Shown here one piece after another: positions 9,397 through 64,000 of a stretch of 64,000 nucleotides of DNA. The position numbers and the translations under genes are program-made. This DNA comes from Ephemerocybe angulata (taxonomy: Eukaryota > Basidiomycota > Agaricomycetes > Agaricales > Psathyrellaceae), in contig JAACJK010000001.1 of the NCBI GenBank assembly GCA_013368325.1, positions 3,286,001 to 3,350,000 of the forward strand. Direction: 5' to 3'. Under the pieces are notes generated by a model. That model did not search any database and had not been told where the DNA came from. It saw only the letters and a program-made list of their open reading frames with translations. Position 1 is the first letter of the stretch, and every line of letters begins with the position of its first letter.

Positions 9397-11191
9397 AGGG
9401 CGTGTGTGCTGGGAACTGAAGATCAGATGAAGAGAATTTAATGTGAGTGGTCTTATGAGTTTCAGGCCATTCGTGCCTCAATACTCATTCGATCTCCAGA
9501 TATTTGTAAACTATAGGATGTTTGAACATAGTCCACATCATTGAAGCAGTGTGGCTAACCAAGTTGCTAACTGCGTATCTGCCGATCAATAGCGTCCGAA
9601 TGCACGCTTTCCGCGCTAACTGAGAAAGTGCCGTCAAAGCAAAAAGATCGCTCCCAATGGAGGGGCACTGGTGATGTAACTCTCCCAAGGCGTGGTCTCA
9701 GGTCAGAAGGCTCCCTCGAGCCTAGCCAACGTGGCTGTTCGGCGGTCGGAGCTGCCTGGCCCTGGTCATCCCAGAACTTATAATAACTCCCATACTCAAG
9801 CAAGTAATTTTAGCAGAACGCATGGAAGGCCCTAGTGGCGTTCAAGTTTCGAATTTTACATTCCACGACTCCAACGGGAAGTCGATACGCCTCACTGACA
9901 CCGTAAGATCCGTGCAGAAATCTCGTCTGCGGCTTTGATTTTTTGTGACTTCACCACCTCTATGCGAGTTTTATATCTAAATGAAGAAGTACACCTGCCT
10001 TTCTCTTCGTTTCGCTATCAAGAGAAATCGAGCTAATACCTTATCACCACACCACAGGCGTTTTTCTCAAGATCGTGAACGTCCAACCTTCCACCGTTGT
10101 CACAGAATAGTGACTTGCGCTTTCTGACCGGAATAAGTCCCGTTATCTTGCTATTTCTGCCTTCTCGTTCCCAATTGTATCCCATATACGGATTGCCGTT
10201 CCTCAGATCCGCCACGCACCCCTTTCGAAGCAGATCTCAAGCAAACGTGCCCCGTCGACGTCTTTCCGTCAACGTCGTCGATCAATATTAATGTTCCAAA
10301 TGTTGCCATCACCGCCAAACGTCCTCGAAAGCGACATCGGATCGCCCTTGGCCAGTCTATACCTTCGGTTTGGGCCTTCTAATACCTCATAAGTAACTAC
10401 TCACCAGAAAAGGCAAAAAGCGAGAAGTGGCAATAACTGACGAGATGCAGCCAGATCCAAGGATAGTGGCACGTTTGATGGATGAGATTGAACGAGCTTG
10501 TGGCGGAAATGGTGTGGGCTCCAGATTTGAGGTAAAGTAGTTTGGGATCTTGAAAACGGGGAACGGGTTCAACCTGTGCTTAAATGGGGACGCCCGAGGA
10601 GATTAAAGCTTAGAAGCGCTCGTGTGGCTTTCAGTGTGGCCCAACGCCGTGAACATCGGTGATTTCGATTGCTGAGCAGAACGCTTTGACAGCGAATGCC
10701 TACTATGTAGTGATCGACGAAGTTACGACCCTGAATAGTACTTGTGCACCCGCGTCCAAAGGTTCCTCGAATGCCGTAGGATGGGAAGACATCGCTGTGG
10801 CTCTTGCGGCACTTATCGGAAACGAAAGTGACCCTTGAATGGCGGATCCGCAAGCGTACCAGTCTCGGTTTACTTTGGTACGTATGTATGGTTGATATTA
10901 GTTTTGACAATAGTGTCAAGATTACAGAAGGGTTAGTACAAGTAGTAATGTCCGACGGAGCGACATACAAATGTCCTGCGGTAGCTGGTGTGATAGAGGC
11001 ATCACGCATGGTTAGATCTCTAGATGCGTCCATGAAGTTAACTTGAACACTGCGGGAAGAAAGCTGCAAAGGAACTAATGGAACATGGAATCAAAGCCCG
11101 ACCGTGTCTCTGAAGGATCGGCGGGGAAGAGGTTCCTCCTTTCTTCTCGGCAGGTATTTGCGGACGCCCTGCGGAGACGGTTCATCTCCGC
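9397..11191. other. Intergenic region, nothing recognised
   Basis: Roughly 1.8 kb between the epimerase stop and the 3' end of chitin deacetylase A. Open frames are short and without recognisable motifs, and no repeat or RNA gene was seen. Confidence 0.5.
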
Positions 11192-55175: not shown

Positions 55176-55823
55176 ATGGTCAATCTCGTTCAAATCACCA
55201 CCAATGAGACTGTGCAGTTCACAGTTACAGCCAATGGAACCCAGAAAGTCGTCAGCTACCGGCCATACGTCTCAGAAAACAACTTATCTCAGGAATATGT
55301 GCTGTGCGACATTTGCCAGCTCCCGGTACGCATTCACGGAACAGCCAGGAAGCGCAACCTAGCGAAGTTACTCAAACATCGAGGAGGGACGGGGTGTCTG
55401 AAACGAAAGCGGCTAGATGAGGAGAGAGAAATTGCAGCAGCAGCTAAGAAAGCGTCAATTGCTGCCTTTGGGACTCATTTGGTAGCTTCAACAAGTCAAA
55501 GTGCGTCGCTTATCGCATCTGCTCTATTATTTTAAGTTAACAGTTGTAATTCAGCTGCGATGAGTGCTGGGCCAAGTCGTGATGGAGATTCAACTCCAGT
55601 TGCAGCCCGGTTTCCCTCAGCTCTGTCATCGCAGCTGGATCTTGAGCAGACGACCCCTACACCAATAACCCCGACCCCAGACTCACCTGTTAACTCGTCC
55701 CCACTCCCTGGGTCTGACCTCGCGGATTCCATCACATTGCCGGCGCCGGAGTTAGCGATGCACGACTCACTGGACAGTTTACCGCAGCCCGAGCCGCGGA
55801 ATATCCAGGGTATTCAGCACTGA
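55176..55823 (+). CDS. BED-like zinc-finger protein flanking KDZ element
   Basis: Exons 55176-55500 and 55555-55823 join in frame to give 197 aa. The N-terminal 50 residues are beta-prone. A zinc-finger-like motif, C-X2-C-X20-H-X5-C, starts with EYVLCDICQL and ends in LLKHRGGTGC, followed by a basic KRKR segment: a layout like BED and related transposon DNA-binding fingers. The rest is Ser/Thr/Pro-rich. It could be the DNA-binding accessory protein of the element, or the surviving N-terminus of a longer transposon gene, because a longer frame is not resumed downstream. The family was not recognised. Confidence 0.55.
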
Positions 55824-56824
55824 TGAGACATGGTGATGGACTAAGTGAGTGGTATGATGGGCCATTTCCGATGGATCGCCAGATCTCACCTGGGTCGGTG
55901 CAATGCCGTGGCCAGTATGGCTCACTTGGGCCGATGCCATCGCAATGGCTCAACTGAGCCACCCTGACATATGAAAAAAGCGGTTCGGTAGACCCAAATA
56001 TGGCCAATCACTGATGAGGCACGCCGCCTGAGGAATGCTTGTCGGGGCGCGCCTTCTGGCAGTGGTGGCAGGTAAGTCGGTGCAAATAAATGTTAAGATT
56101 TGTACACGGGGGGCACCGTCGGTAATTAGATTTCCGAATTCCATCCCAGTTAGGGTCCTTTCCCTGAGCGCATGCGCGCCCCATTTCCAGAACACAACCA
56201 TAAACGCACGCGGAATAGGGCATAAATAAGCCCGTCGGAATGAAAAATGTCGAAGGCGGCGCTGTTTGCGGGGTACCGATGATCAAGAGTGATCATAGGC
56301 AAATCATATACATAAAGGGAATGATGTACATAAAGGGAATAATCCCCGGTGCCGGTGGCGGAGTAGCTCCTCCGTTGTGAACATGACGTGACAGCGCGAC
56401 CCGCGGCTTGGGATCGGCATGAAGCAAGGCGGTCTTGCCAAAATCAAGTCACCGACAACAGCGCCCGGCCTCACCCCGGCCTTGAAACTGTCAAGGAATC
56501 AACAGCCTCGCGATCCCCACATGTCTTGTTCGTCCTCGCTCAATAAAAGCCTGAGCGTTCAGTGAGTCCCGCCAACCCTCACGTCCCCCCAGAAAGCTTC
56601 GCAATATCCCGCCGCGCAGGAATGGCCGACGAATTACCGCCGGGCTTGAAATTCTGTTGCGCGTGTTCGGAATACGCGCAAAGTCTCTTGAACGAGGCCA
56701 CAGGGCGGGGGCCCAATGTGCAGTCGGACTTGACTATCCCATATCATGTACGAGGAGAGCTGGAGAAGATGGTGGGCCGCTTGCGCGAAGCGTGGGGTCG
56801 ACAAGGTCCGTGCAATTCATAACT
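55824..56824. other. Spacer upstream of TET/JBP gene
   Basis: About 1 kb. A plus-strand frame at 56562-56822 (LKFCCACSEYAQSLLNEATG) may be an upstream exon of the dioxygenase or a separate fragment; I could not connect it by convincing splice sites. A short direct repeat, cataaagggaat, occurs near 56311 and 56328. Confidence 0.45.
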
Positions 56825-58000
56825 ATGCTACAGGTGCTTACCTTCCCGGCGGAAATTCTAGTGGTTTTAGATTATTCCATCACCGACGTTCTCCAGGCGC
56901 TCCAGTCCAGCAGCTCGAAGCCGAAGTCAGAATTGCTGAGGGAGCGATTCAAAGGTCCCTTCATGCCCAAAGATGATGGGACAGGAACATCAGAACTGCT
57001 GGAGAAGCCGATGGTGTTTGTAGACCAATCAAGCACTATCGTCGCATGGTACCTACCGGGGCTCTTTACTCGGCAACGTTGCGTAAGCTTATTGAGATCC
57101 GGTATTCTATTCGAACTCTGAGCTGACCTGTGATGTGGATGAAATAGGAACAAGTCCATGCTGCAGTTAGGAACCTTTCGGCCCATCCACACAGTCCGAT
57201 CCAGGTCAACAGCTTGAGCCAGAACTGGCGGGAAGACTCGACCTCACTCCAACCCGGATGTGGCTCTGGTTTGACCGCGGGGCACGTCAATATGAGCATC
57301 GGGTGGTACGGCCAAGGTCACGATGTAAGCCGACTCCCTCCCTCCATATCCCGGGCCCATTTTCAGAATAGTGTGGACTGTAAACTGAGACGAGTGCATT
57401 TTCAAATAGGGCACAAACTCTAAGCCATGCCCTTCAAGGGTCTTCCAAAATGGCGACAGGAATGGTGCGAAGGAGTTTATCTCCTCCATCACCGAAATGA
57501 ACGCTTTGATCGGGACGGCACTCTCTCTCGTTCACCCCCGTCTCTTCAAGATGCAGATTCAAGTCTTGGTTGAACTGTACGCCGGCAGGGCTGAATGTAA
57601 CCACCGCGAGCTGATGCTGGAGCTCTTTCAGCACTGGTCTACTCCCTTCACTGGGTTCGATCTTATCTCGAACAGGGAGTCACCTTTCCATAGAGATTCC
57701 CGAGGTGGGAAGCTACTTTGGGACTTTCTCGCGATCTTCGGAGATCATTGCGACGGTCGGCTTGAAGTGCCCCTCCTCAGTGCACGGTTTGTATACAACC
57801 CTGGGACCGGATTTTTCCTACCCGGGTACTTGTTTGAGCACGGCGCTAGTCGCACGACTGGGGAACGGATCTGCATGGCTTGTTACTTCAAGCCCAATGT
57901 TGGTCGGGGTTCCTTAGCTTCATACGTAGAAGCCCGGCCTCCGACCACACTTGAGCTCAGGCATCAATATGGGCAAACTTGTATTATGGACATTCCATAG
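56825..58000 (+). CDS. TET/JBP-type 2-oxoglutarate/Fe(II) dioxygenase
   Basis: Predicted nucleic-acid-modifying dioxygenase, oxidising 5-methylcytosine or another modified base. Exons 56825-57082, 57148-57324 and 57410-58000 all splice in phase 0 and give 341 aa. The double-stranded beta-helix core shows SPFHRDSRGGKL, with the iron-binding His-X-Asp near residues 239-241, then DFLAIFGDHCDGRLEVP, and LPGYLFEHGASRTTGERICM, with the distal iron His near 289 and the 2-oxoglutarate-binding Arg near 298. N-terminal segments VFVDQSSTIVAWYLPGLF and SLSQNWRED, and the helix ISSITEMNALIGTALSLVHP, also match fungal TET/JBP proteins. All catalytic residues are present. The neighbouring KDZ transposase supports the assignment, as the two gene types are linked in mushroom genomes. 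Confidence 0.82.
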
Positions 58001-58043
58001 GTCTGGCAGGCTTGTAATTGTAAATACATAGCTCTACATATAT

Positions 58044-58916
58044 CTACATATATACATCGGGATACTCATGGGCATGCTGCAATCGTCGCAATCTCGAGAG
58101 GGAGTCGTTCAAAAACGCCATGTGTACCTCGCTGTTCCTTATACTCGCATCTATGACAGAGAGACCCTGCGTCAACAAATTGTAAAGCTGCGGTGTTATC
58201 TCTGATGACCGATCCGAACGGCCGGACTGATATGGTACGTCGGGAGCCCGATTGGGCCCGTCGGGGTCGGCGGGGTCGGCGGGGTCGGCGGGCGGAGCAA
58301 TGGTATAAGCCTCTGCGTACGCCTCTTGCCATTCTTCAAAAACAGAAGCGATAGTCGGGCGAGGTAAACCGGAATTCCACCAGCTACGTATGGTGTAGCG
58401 ACAGGACTGCAAAAGGGGTGCCCCTGTCAACCTCCCATTGTCAAGGAGGCATCCGTTGCGTAGTGCGGCCCAAAGATCGGCATTCGAGTTATCGTGGAGC
58501 GGCAAGCGCTCTAACAGCGATTTTAGGGGCATAGTTCTGAGGTTGAACTCCACGAGGGAACTGTGGAAGCCGTGTAGGGTGATGGCTATGTTCTGCAAGG
58601 TACAGGGTCAGTTCCAACTCCCCGATCCACTCTCCTCTTACCCGCTCACCAGTTCATCATAAAAAAGCTCGATATAGCGTACATCGTACGCGATGCGGTG
58701 TCCATTGCGGTGCAGATACTCCAGGAATCGCTCTCTTCGATAGGTGATGAAAACAAGGAAACTATTCCATAGAGTGGGGGAGCTGAAGGGCGGGACACAG
58801 AACATGTTCGGAGTCATTGAAAACCGTGGCATCGCAGGTGAGTCTTTTATAGCTCTATCGTCCCCTTGGGCTGGCGGGAACCATAGAGAAGCATACGGCG
58901 TTTTAAATCCCACCAA
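58044..58916 (-). CDS. Unrecognised 271-aa protein next to TET/JBP
   Basis: Exons 58916-58650 and 58592-58044 join in phase 0 (FYDEL, then NIAITLHGFH). No domain recognised. It is mostly helical with Trp-rich spots (SLWFPPAQGDD, SWWNSGLPRP, VFEEWQEAYAEAYTI), a PADPADPADP repeat from a ggggtcggc triplication near 58262-58290, and a C-terminal helix (LLTQGLSVIDASIRNSEVHM). There is no signal peptide or zinc motif. Its stop is 44 bases from that of the convergent dioxygenase, and it lies in the same gene file as the transposase. Probably an accessory protein of the element, or host cargo. Confidence 0.6.
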
Positions 58917-59062
58917 GATCTAGGTCCTCGGGAAGAATAGTGGTGGCAGCGGATTCCGACAAAGCAGCACCAATCGGACCGCGTATGCAAGTCGGGACTT
59001 CGAAAGGACAAAACACTGATCATTGGCAGAGTTCAATTTACAAACATTGAGATTTATTCTAC

Positions 59063-59837
59063 TCAGGACCGACTTATCAATTCGGCCCGTTTCACGAGCT
59101 CATCTACCTCCAACTTCATAATTCTCTGCGATAAATCTCGGAGGGCTTTGATTGTCAATGCCAGGCCCTTGAGGTGGTCGCGCGTCATTTCTATATCGGA
59201 GTCGATAAATCGGATCGCGTCGGAGGATGCGGCTAGAGCGCCTGTGAGCTGCGCTTCGGTCAACGCGCCGAGGTTCAGGTTGGAATAGCGGGGCAAGCAG
59301 ACAGCAGGAGGCAAATCCTTCAGCTGCTTCTGCCAGTGGTCGAGTAGATTCAGCGGGGATGAGGTTGGAGCTACCTGCGGCCCATCAGGCGTATAAGATA
59401 TCCACCAGTTGCCTTCGTATTTGGCGAGCACCTGGTCATACTCATCACGTCTGTCGGTAACGATCGCCATGATCGCATCAAACTCCCCTTCCCGCCCCTC
59501 CACAAAAAGTCTCAAGAGGCCCCTAAAGGCCCAGGGTGGGTGAAGCCTCTCATCGTGCACCGTAAGCCCCATTCCAAAAAGATAGTTGGTCGATATCTGT
59601 GTGTAGCCATGCCAGCTTCAATGTCAATATACTGCGGAATGATCGATTTAGACATACCAATTCAGTTAGAAGGTAAGACTTGTACATGGACAAAGCGTCA
59701 TCGGATATCATGGTATGGCGGATTCCATAGCAGAGAGCCGCTGCCCGACAACGGCTGGACGCGTAGTTGATTAAACTCTGGAAGACGCGGGGTTTCAGGG
59801 CCCGAATTCTGCTGAGGATTTCGCGGTCCTGAGACAT
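59063..59837 (-). CDS. Unrecognised 237-aa protein downstream of KDZ transposase
   Basis: Exons 59837-59658 and 59596-59063 join in phase 0 (YLLTEL, then ISTNYLFGMG). No domain recognised. It is predicted all-helical and charged, with segments ILSRIRALKPRVFQSLINYA, PWAFRGLLRLFVEGREGEF and a C-terminal coiled-coil-like stretch (DHLKGLALTIKALRDLSQRI, then MKLEVDELVKRAEL). It starts only 37 bases after the transposase stop on the same strand, closer than any other pair here, which suggests a functional link or shared transcript. Confidence 0.65.
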
Positions 59838-59873
59838 AAAGACAATATAATGATGTGGGGGAGCGATATCGAA

Positions 59874-62800
59874 TTACAAGTTGTAGAAGGCAGATTTAAC
59901 ATCCAGCGTCTCTGTTTTGAAGGCCTCATCAATGTCCATCTTTTCATCTCCATCTGAATCATGTGGATCACCAGGTATTCTTCCCTCTTCTTTGACTTCT
60001 TGCTTCACCGAGTCTTCCATCACAAGTAAATCGACCCCCGCTTTTGTTCGGAACTTCACCACTGCATCGGCGCCAACTCTCCTCCACATATCGGCTTGGC
60101 GGGAAGCGTATGATCGCGATCCGTCAGTCTCAGCCCTCAAGGCCCATCCTTCGGCTCTGGTCTGTCGGAAGTGGGTAAATCGGACGAACCAGTCCATCTC
60201 CGACTTGAGGAGAGCCACCTCCTCGGTCCACCTGTCACTCCTGGACTTCGCGCGGATCCAGCTAATACGGTATACTGTTATAGTTGGGAAGTTGTAATTT
60301 AGTGTTCAAAAGTTGCGAATATCATGGCCACTCACCCTCCTCCATATACTTGCTGTTGTCAGAATCCCCTTCGACATTGAGGTGCCAAATCCAAGAGAGT
60401 GCCTCATCTCGCGCCCCCGCCTTGTTCGGGTCATATACCGACGACACCGCCGTGGTATGCGCCCGAGTCAGCACCTGGAATTGGGGATACTTCTCCGCGA
60501 CATCGAGCCGCTCAAGAGCCCACAGTGCGGAACGATACCTTTGCACTTGATATCTCATCGACCTTTCGACTTCGTTAATCGCGTCATATCCCCTTGTCCG
60601 CTCACGTTTCCCAGAGGCCAACTTCTTATTTTCCCGATACAGCCTCGACTTCTGCACGATATGGTTCCGAAGCTCTTCCAAAGCATCGTCCGCCTGCGCA
60701 ACACGAAGAATTTCTTCTTTCTGAAAAACGACATCCCACCCGTCTGGCCGTTCTTCCAGACTGGATGGGAGTGGAAGGGGCGACAGCTCATGCTCCGAGC
60801 CCCGCAGGAGTTCGGCGGTTCGGGCCACGTCCTCCTCCTCGCAAATGCACTCGTCCTATTCCCTCGTCAGAATGTGGTATACCAACATCAAACCCAACAC
60901 CAAAGCACGAACCTCACATATACAAACTTCCTCCTCGATCCCCCAAACCTTTGGCCTCATGTCTTCCAATTTCACGTCGGGGAATAGATCCTCCGCCTCG
61001 GTGTAGAAAATGTTCATCAAGCGGATGATAGCCTGTGCTTTGCGGGCCGTCTCTACCTCCCGCTTTAGCAGCGCCTTGTTTGCTTTCTTCTTCCTTGTGG
61101 TCGGTAAATCCAATGGCCTAGATCGTAACAACGCCCTCTGTTTGATTCTGAGAATATAAATTGTCATTAACATGTGCATTTGACAAGTACATAAATAAAT
61201 ACGGACTGTGCTTCTTGAAGCTCAATACCCAAGGATATCCAATCGGCGACGCCAACCTGATCCCGCTTCTCCGCCTTCTCTTCTTCCATCATTCGGACCT
61301 GGATAGCATGAGGTGCCTCAGCTGAGTTGAGGGGTAAGCCAAATGCGACCCAAAGATGAGGTGATCCACTCACGTTTCGGGACATTCATATTGTATACGT
61401 CCATTGAGGCATTGCCATCGGGGGCGGATCGATCTTGATTGGCTTTGTTCATCAGCGTGGTCCATGAGGCCCTCTGAGCTTCCGACGCGGTGCTATCCAG
61501 CTTCCGAAAGTCTTCAGCGGCTTGGGCTTGATCGACCTTCGAATCGTCCAGGCTCGTAATCAAGTACGCAACTAAGGCAACTGTTAGCTGATCTGAGACT
61601 GTTAAATTCATTCTTCACATACCCATTCCCTGGAGCTTTCTCCAATTGCCGTCGTTCATGCATGCGTCAAGCATCTCGGACCGGTGAGGCAGAGTCATGT
61701 TTCGGGTTGAGCTCGCGGCCCCGTTCAAAGTCGACCACAAAGACTCCAAGATTTCTCCGCTCTTGACTCCTGCCCCTGGATAGTAGGTAGGTGCAAAGCG
61801 GTGTAGACACTCTTCTTTATGCCCGTGGACGTGAAACAGTCCTATGAGGAAGTCCAGGACCAGGTTCTTTGGGAACAGCTCCTGCAGTCGGGGGCTTCGG
61901 GAGATTCGGGTTTGAAAATTGATGCAATACTGGCAGCTGATATCGTACGCGAGGATGGACTTGGGCAAGGCTTTGGCGTTCGTGGACTTCAGAGCCTGGC
62001 ATAACGCATAATCCACATTCAGCTGTCTGTGTCATTGATCGGGATCAAGGGCGGGGTATGATACGTCGGGAGGACGGTGCGGAATTCGGGAAGTCGGGTG
62101 TGTGTCGGGATCATAGCGGAGAATTCGGGAGGTCGGGATGCATCGGGGTTACAGGAGGGAATTAGGAAGGTCGGATGGAATAGAAATTACAATGGACGCT
62201 CACCTTTCCCCCTTCTGCATGTCCACCACAGCCCCCGGTGCGAAGCACCCGTGTCGGGCACAGGCCACCGCCACGAGACCTGTGGAATCATACCCCTTCT
62301 TAGCCTGATTCTTCTCCGCGATTGCACGGTGCTTATTACACATGGGCGCCTAATGTCACATTCAGTCATCCATTCGACTCATAAACGATTCCAAGTTAAA
62401 ATAGAAATAATCAATAAACTTAGGAGATACTAGAAAAGAAGTCAAATCTCATCCCAGCCTACCTCCTTATATTCCTTGGAGGATTTGACGTGCTGGCCAT
62501 ATGCGGTCTTCTCAGTCATGAATGCCCTTCCTTCCGTGAGGTCCACCCCTTCTTCCGACCCCTGCTTGATGGGGTGGTTGAGAACGAAGTTTCCATCCGA
62601 TACTAGGTAGCGGTTGTACTTCCACCTGTTAAATCAATTAGAAAGGTCTTTAAGCAAAGGACAGGCATGAAAAGTGGGGGACTTACATGGGGCCAATTAC
62701 CTTCCAATTCTCCGGGAGATTGATGTCGGGCTGTGGGCATGTTGCGCAAAACAATGCAAGTTCCCCTTCTTGGGGCTCTCCGACGTCGGGCGAGACCCCA

Positions 62801-63982
62801 AACCCATTTCGTTTGAGGTTCGTGAGATGGTTGAACTGCTGCCAGATCCTTCCAAGTTCGCGCTTCCGATCCTGCAAAGTAATTAGATAATATCCATGGT
62901 ATGCAAGAAGTGATGCAGAACTTACCAGAGTTTCGGCGGGGAAACTGTAGTTAGTGAGCCTCCGCAGAATATCGGAGTAGCTGTCAGTCGCCATGTGCGT
63001 CTGGACTTTGAGCAGGTGGACGTGTTTCAGAACCTCAAAGGTGAAGACGGTTTTAACGGACTTGGAGGTTGTGGGGTAGAATGAGTGGCGGAGGCACTGA
63101 ACTTCGTCCGCTGGGGCATTCGGACAGAAGCATGAGAAGACGGGAAGGTGGTGATATCCATTTGTGTGGACGAAGGCAACAACGTCGCCCGACCCGATGA
63201 TCTTGTTCTTCGGGATGGCGCCATAGCTTGGATCGTCCGAGAAATCATCCACCTCGTTGATGTTCGTGCAACGAGCCTCCAGATCTTCTCGAGTCGCCTG
63301 GTATCGCGGGCAGGGTTGGGATCCATGGCCCAAGCAGATAATCGTCCCAACGTGCCAGAGCCAAGCCGGCACCCAATGACCAGCGGTCCACCGCTCGACC
63401 CGATGGAGCGGGTTGTCGCGATGGCCAACAAGGCAACACTCTCGACAAAGGCGAGGGGTGCCGACACATGTGAGGCATCGCCAGACAGTCGCACCTTTCA
63501 AGCATCTCTCGCAGTCAGAGGACCTCAGAGCCTCGGCTTCAATGATTTCGGCCAAGTAAAGTCCGACTTTGGACTCCTTCCATAACTTCATGTATTCGTG
63601 CGTTGTCTGTGGTGCATTGATTAGATAGTAAATTAAAATAAAATTAGACACTCACATTCCCTTGGCTAGTCTTTCCTGAATGTCTTGTAAACAGATCTTC
63701 CTTGTACTCTTGTTTCGCGGCTTCAGCGGCATTCTCGGCGCCCGAATCGTCCGATCCATAGTCGAAGCCACCAAGTTCTGGCTCCATCCTATGCTTATGG
63801 GGATTGTAGTCATCGGTCCTTGGTCGCTTTACCGCCACGTTCTTGGGACCCCTTGGTATGAGAGAGGAGAGTCGGGCTCGAGTAACGGGAACGAGTTTCA
63901 ACTTGTCGCCTCTTTTGGATGGTTGGACCACGAGATCAGAGACTTTGAAACCGCGGCGGTCGAAGGACTTTTTGGGAGGCAT
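59874..63982 (-). CDS. KDZ (Kyakuja-Dileera-Zisupton) transposase with CxC2-like domain
   Basis: Predicted DNA transposase. Eleven exons join in frame: 63982-63656, 63606-62926, 62871-62687, 62625-62463, 62349-62204, 62026-61623, 61571-61374, 61321-61207, 61147-60913, 60855-60336 and 60274-59874, giving 1124 aa. A basic N-terminus (MPPKKSFDRRGFKV) precedes a cysteine cluster near residues 140-185 (CERCLKGATVWRCLTC, LCRECCLVGHRDNPLH), of the CxC2 type found with KDZ proteins. The RNase-H-like core has VSDGNF, VACARHGCF with VVDMQKGER, YDISCQY near 529, FHVHGHKEEC and SGEILESLW near 593; the Asp, Asp and Glu of these motifs are the likely catalytic triad. A helical C-terminus follows. No stop or frameshift was found, so the protein may be active. 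The exon 8 to 9 junction uses a weak donor. Confidence 0.88.
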
Positions 63983-64000
63983 CTCGCAGGTACTGAGGAT

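Follow-up and report, generated by a model that had tools for sequence, protein, structure and literature searches.

A stretch of under 9 kb in the Ephemerocybe angulata genome holds, side by side, a gene for a KDZ transposase, a gene for a TET/JBP dioxygenase, a zinc-finger open reading frame (ORF) and two genes for small proteins. A first-pass annotation took this block for a KDZ transposon carrying the dioxygenase and three accessory genes. This raises the questions of where the mobile unit begins and ends, which genes belong to it, and whether its partner genes are functional components or passengers.

KDZ transposons that carry a TET gene have precedent. The passages of Kojima 2025 (PMC12730594) on which we draw describe the TET-containing (TET+) Kyakuja elements of Agaricomycetes as bearing 7-bp target duplications, CA..TG ends and an AG-type TET, with inverted repeats absent; the duplications of Zisupton and Dileera are given there as 8 bp. 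These passages link Gly 331 and Asp 337 of TET to 5mC/6mA activity and propose that TET allows escape from silencing. Citing work in Coprinopsis and Laccaria, they also report oxidized methylcytosine on other transposons, retrotransposons and centromeres, and suggest that the oxidation is not target-specific. These passages of Kojima 2025 name no further Kyakuja proteins, the passages of PMC8889193 that we consulted mention neither KDZ nor Kyakuja, and none of the titles found on KDZ, Kyakuja, TET/JBP or Coprinopsis 5hmC is about partner genes.

Results

The annotated block forms the left half of a transposon of 18,032 bp

We analyzed a 64,000-nucleotide stretch (the window; C125:3286001-3350000) of an E. 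angulata assembly of 58.7 Mb in 232 contigs, the one genome from which all locus counts below derive. Past the window end, an L009 position plus 64000 gives the carried-on window position. Using the TET and KDZ stretches as DNA queries, we retrieved related loci, four of which (C215, C231, C47 and C219) were taken with their flanks. These share 62–70% identity with the window copy over long stretches, and colinearity runs from window position 55806 to ~9,840 bp past 64000, in C231 only up to the contig end. Borders drawn from the five colinear copies delimit an element of 18,032 bp, extending from window position 55806 to L009:9837 (C125:3341806-3359837); the other three complete copies measure ~18.3–20.1 kb. 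The block of under 9 kb initially regarded as the whole unit is really the left half of this element, which carries another four genes, D, E, F and G, beyond position 64000.

The border features are as follows:

55176..55805, plus strand: zinc-finger gene, left part, outside the element; resumes at L009:9845
55799..55805: left 7-bp target duplication GAATATC; right copy at L009:9838-9844 (C125:3359838-3359844)
55806..56014: left terminus CAGGGTATTCAGCA with a conserved subterminal stretch; 87% identity to two copies, 69–74% over ~155 bp to two others
55806..64000: portion of the 18,032-bp element inside the window; remainder through L009:9837

The left border, CAGGGTATTCAGCA, is sharp, with at most two mismatches in all five copies, and the sequence outside it is unrelated between copies. 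Differing insertion contexts had been put forward as grounds for rejecting a unit; unrelated flanks around a conserved block do not refute it, because they are what a transposon predicts. Exact 7-bp target duplications are present in three of the four copies having both ends (GAATATC in the window copy, CTATTCC in C215 and CTTTCAG in C47), as obtained by searching for 8-mers and reading the output as 7 bp with CA..TG ends. C231, which loses its right end at the contig end, was left out of this count; C219 has both ends, and a search for its left-flank word at the right border returned no duplication. The termini read CAGGG...CATTG in the window copy and CAGGG...TGTG in C215 and C47. Extension past position 64000, proposed at the outset as a way to find terminal repeats, did yield the right end, which was located by alignment and near which the outermost 14 bases do not recur in inverted form. 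The subterminal parts share weak inverted similarity, ~66% over some 100 bp, some 50–150 bp inside the ends.

Two compositional features were also observed. A tandem repeat of a ~50-bp unit (...ctattgcgccctaaattggcgggcgcgcggctgtcccattccg...) lies directly inside the right end, at L009:about 9497-9670. The TCG/ACG ratio is 1.7–1.9 in the elements of the window, C219, C47, C215 and C231, 1.27 in window positions 1-55800 and 1.47 in L010.

The element interrupts a zinc-finger gene

The zinc-finger ORF (55176-55823) runs over the duplication and stops five codons into the element. When the flanks are joined minus one 7-bp duplication, 252 codons are open, 90 from the left and 162 from the right. 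Since the left end of the element lies in the frame of the ORF, and this frame reopens on joining the flanks, the zinc-finger gene is the insertion target and not cargo. The initial count of three accessory genes thus holds for two, A and B, which belong to the element; the third was broken by it. A paralogue at C196 has both parts, zinc-finger and right-hand, in unchanged order, its right-hand match beginning three residues left of the junction, so near to it because the preceding proline-rich stretch does not align. The match of a C98 relative starts ~10 residues left of the junction, within a long open frame. The zinc-finger frame is undecayed at the joint, which suggests that the insertion is young; for the borders, the interrupted gene provides a clean empty-site control.

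An open frame of 1,235 aa (L010:240-3947; C125:3360240-3363947), for which no Pfam family scored above its cut-off, follows the element directly on the right. Judged from its relatives, this frame may be a downstream gene part, belonging either to the zinc-finger gene that was interrupted or to another mobile gene.

Eight genes in the element

Genes were modeled from sequence with a simple splice model that uses GT-AG introns and codon usage trained on conserved exons. Their order is TET(+), A(-), B(-), KDZ transposase(-), D(+), E(+), F(-), G(+):

56622..58000, plus strand: TET/JBP dioxygenase, 4 exons and 388 aa modeled; Pfam Tet_JBP E 1.6e-9
58044..58805, minus strand: gene A, 234 aa, 2 exons modeled
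59063..59837, minus strand: gene B, 237 aa, 2 exons modeled, start taken as the ATG at 59837; found at 21 loci
59874..63982, minus strand: KDZ transposase with CxC2, ~1,100 aa, 11–12 exons modeled
64250-67413 (past the window), plus strand: gene D, HMG-box-like, splice model
67667-68364 (past the window), plus strand: gene E, splice model
about 68685-71823 (past the window), minus strand: gene F, six-cysteine cluster and coiled coils, splice model
72297-73230 (past the window), plus strand: gene G, splice model

The transposase matches the Pfam families KDZ (PF18758; E 4.1e-28) and CxC2 (E 8.4e-19) on the minus strand, and the predicted spliced models of both it and TET have open frames, which agrees with the early description of an apparently intact CxC2-KDZ transposase. 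The splice model gives 1,091 aa in the window copy and 1,059–1,145 aa in the other four copies; the gene end in the window copy is read from the ...AFYNL terminus shared with C219, from which the automatic last exon differs.

That the dioxygenase retains its catalytic residues, as first read, is upheld by its Tet_JBP match and by alignment with CcTET of Coprinopsis cinerea (PDB 7vpn, 8jkk), with which it shares the catalytic HxD, the distal H, the R, and the Gly and Asp numbered 331 and 337 by Kojima. The predicted Fe(II) triad HxD...H and 2OG-binding R align in all five TET copies. The C219 copy matches CcTET in the PDB with E 1e-25 and 94 bits over ~200 aligned residues. Because the Gly and Asp positions of CcTET are kept, 5mC is a likely substrate, and 6mA perhaps another.

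The partner genes gave fewer matches. Neither A nor B matches a Pfam family above its cut-off, and E and G have no Pfam assignment. D seems to hold a divergent HMG box. All seven D members examined match HMG_box_2 weakly, at E up to 10; only a C214 relative (31.3 bits) exceeds the 22.4-bit cut-off of this family, and D of the window copy reaches 14.2 bits. The spacing C-x2-C-x6-C ... C-x2-C-x6-C is the motif of Zn2Cys6 clusters. It is present in F in all four copies that hold this gene, and F gave no Pfam match for the Zn2Cys6 cluster family.

Some copies depart from the simple arrangement. G is doubled in tandem in the right part of C219 (135283, 136821) and C179 (13675, 12062). The copy at C179:12000-47400 is related to that of C219; its D gene is split and 6.6 kb separate TET from A, which looks as though the element had since taken up insertions.

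Partner genes mark a subset of KDZ loci and keep one layout

Matches across the assembly were merged into loci by hand, giving at least 104 KDZ loci from the 150 of 170 matches listed. TET gave 25 matches above the cut-off, with five weaker ones dropped, and A, B, D, F and G were each searched with one C215 query, so that their presence is a lower bound. Of the 25 TET matches, 20 have a listed KDZ gene no more than 12 kb away; B lies within 3.1 kb of one at 20 of 21 loci, where ~1.1% is expected per locus (binomial 1e-38, a figure that wrongly takes copies as independent); the remaining B locus has a TET gene 2 kb away. The check proposed at the outset, whether accessory genes neighbor KDZ or TET genes beyond chance, comes out positive for B in this genome. 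Regions no more than 15 kb away from a KDZ or TET gene in these listings make up 5.3% of the genome; they contain all 13 A loci, 23 of 24 D loci (the last is at 18 kb), 11 of 13 G loci and five of six F loci (six of six within 25 kb).

B and D recur in most of the Kyakuja loci found. Of the 104 listed KDZ loci, counted across KDZ groups, 26 lie near TET, A, B or D and 78 near none of these, so the partners mark one KDZ subset. Every locus with at least two genes that was scored by script (26/26) follows the layout TET+ A- B- KDZ- D+ F- G+, from which parts may be absent. Two misfits identified by hand, a C98 TET-KDZ pair 8.9 kb apart and a C117 TET-D pair near 995–1,003 kb, bring the total to 26 of 28. 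The set of partners had been called variable and poorly described; in this genome it keeps one layout at nearly all loci, and the passages of Kojima 2025 (PMC12730594) drawn on here do not describe it. The layout score leaves aside the partnerless TET matches on C189, C112 and C18, a G match at C47:239002 and the D matches at C117:14671-17103, which are 16–18 kb away from the closest KDZ and on the wrong side of it for the layout.

The TET matches at C189:1899, C112:485538 and C18:735567, with no listed KDZ within 12 kb, are solo, degraded or independent TET genes. Two further Kyakuja families were seen, one comprising C66, C214, C64 and C210 and the other C22, C125:3706k, C117:1024k and C232:291k; copy scores within them are near-equal, so these copies are probably recent.

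The element genes are under purifying selection

We estimated dN/dS by the Nei-Gojobori method on aligned codons for the pairs C47-C231 and C47-C215, pairs with the window copy being mostly saturated at synonymous sites. For the first and second pair, respectively, the values are 0.16 and 0.10 for TET, 0.16 and 0.09 for the transposase, 0.20 and 0.19 for A, 0.15 and 0.14 for B, and 0.33 and 0.23 for D; E (0.30), F (0.45) and G (0.36) were scored in C47-C215 only. All eight genes thus fall below 0.5 in each scorable pair, and A and B range from 0.14 to 0.20, compared with 0.09 to 0.16 for the transposase and TET. Badly aligned windows were removed beforehand (columns kept: F, 805 of 1,285; G, 211 of 280; E, 110 of 163), which lowers dN and makes these values optimistic. 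A and B are genuine element genes under purifying selection, which substantiates the early reading of the two proteins as real. Across the five copies, KDZ, TET, A, B and D show concordant patterns of identity, so these genes were probably inherited together.

Related proteins in other E. angulata sequences

Relatives of A, B and D in the protein collection come from E. angulata only. P0003 (A) and P0004 (D) both derive from a 147,756-bp contig, and P0001 (B), P0002 (A) and P0005 (D) all derive from a 1,481,020-bp contig. If equal size means the same contig, the A, B and D genes sit together in this other E. angulata set too. By eye, P0002 differs from the C231 gene A model at two of 230 residues, and P0001 shares 97.7% identity with C231 gene B across 177 residues. 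The collection holds nothing near-identical to A, B or D of the window copy, a hint that the window insertion is absent from that strain, although unannotated genes would look alike. The nearest relatives of P0003 and P0004 in the present assembly are only ~50–76% identical, which suggests that the two strains differ in the Kyakuja families they contain.

Discussion

The locus contains a discrete multi-gene transposon, inserted in a gene and under selection. Borders, colinear copies and the proximity of most TET matches to KDZ genes strongly support the KDZ/TET linkage in a mobile unit that was proposed at first. In our view the element is very probably a TET+ Kyakuja transposon, an assignment made from the published description of features. 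With TET+ Kyakuja such as Kyakuja-1_LB and -2_LB, as the passages of Kojima 2025 (PMC12730594) describe them, it shares the KDZ transposase, an AG-type (CcTET-like) TET, the 7-bp duplication and CA..TG ends; it differs in six additional genes, undescribed for Kyakuja in those passages, and in its weak subterminal inverted similarity, where they report no inverted repeats. This similarity and the absence of a duplication around C219 count against our assignment. Zisupton and Dileera, also KDZ groups, have the transposase in common with it but, in the same source, duplications of 8 bp. Starship giant transposons are likewise large gene-carrying fungal elements; in the descriptions we drew on they use a tyrosine recombinase and occur in Pezizomycotina, whereas the present element has a KDZ transposase and a fixed gene set.

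In the mechanism that we favor along with this assignment, the KDZ protein would act as a cut-and-paste transposase for the element, with D, and perhaps F, assisting as DNA-binding proteins that the element itself encodes. On element DNA, TET would oxidize 5mC and, like CcTET, perhaps also 6mA, allowing the element to escape or tune methylation-based silencing. A and B may be small partners of the transposase or of TET. An anti-silencing role for TET, also suggested in the first-pass annotation, is plausible and already proposed in print (Kojima 2025, PMC12730594); roles for A, B, E and G are guesses.

Could the partners instead be mere cargo on a KDZ-TET transposon and contribute nothing to transposition? 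A, E, F and G do evolve faster than the transposase and TET or occur at fewer loci, and no function can be assigned to A, B, E or G. We nevertheless judge this unlikely given the dN/dS of A and B, close to that of the transposase and TET, the near-constant placement of B and D beside KDZ or TET at their 21 and 24 loci, the single layout and the way identity patterns match among KDZ, TET, A, B and D. That host genes cluster next to a KDZ fragment by chance, as the zinc-finger gene truly does, has next to no probability given the borders, the target duplications and the occurrence of colinear copies in unrelated surroundings; those copies refute it for TET, A, B, KDZ, D, F and G.

A more serious competitor, less probable than protection of the element's own DNA yet deserving weight, is that TET acts genome-wide on the methylation of the host or of other elements and is kept for host or all-element benefit. 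It draws support from the oxidized methylcytosine on other transposons, retrotransposons and centromeres reported in the passages of Kojima (PMC12730594), whereas the placement of TET near KDZ genes and the constraint on it fit benefit to the element. The five TET matches that lie more than 12 kb from any listed KDZ fit either view. We also entertain, as a distinctly improbable extension, a self-contained epigenetic kit in which D and F, with B as a standing adaptor, would bring the transposase and TET in cis to the subterminal repeats, and methylcytosine oxidation would be an obligate step of transposition, beyond escape from silencing.

TET+ Kyakuja as a kind are already published, and what we add is modest: a less described feature, the conserved eight-gene layout in this genome. 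The pairing of TET with KDZ is known in mushrooms; here its partner genes become a defined set that is testable one by one. The layout of TET, B, transposase and D is fixed across divergent families of one genome, the HMG-box-like D is a standing member, and the constraint on A and B is close to that on the catalytic genes.
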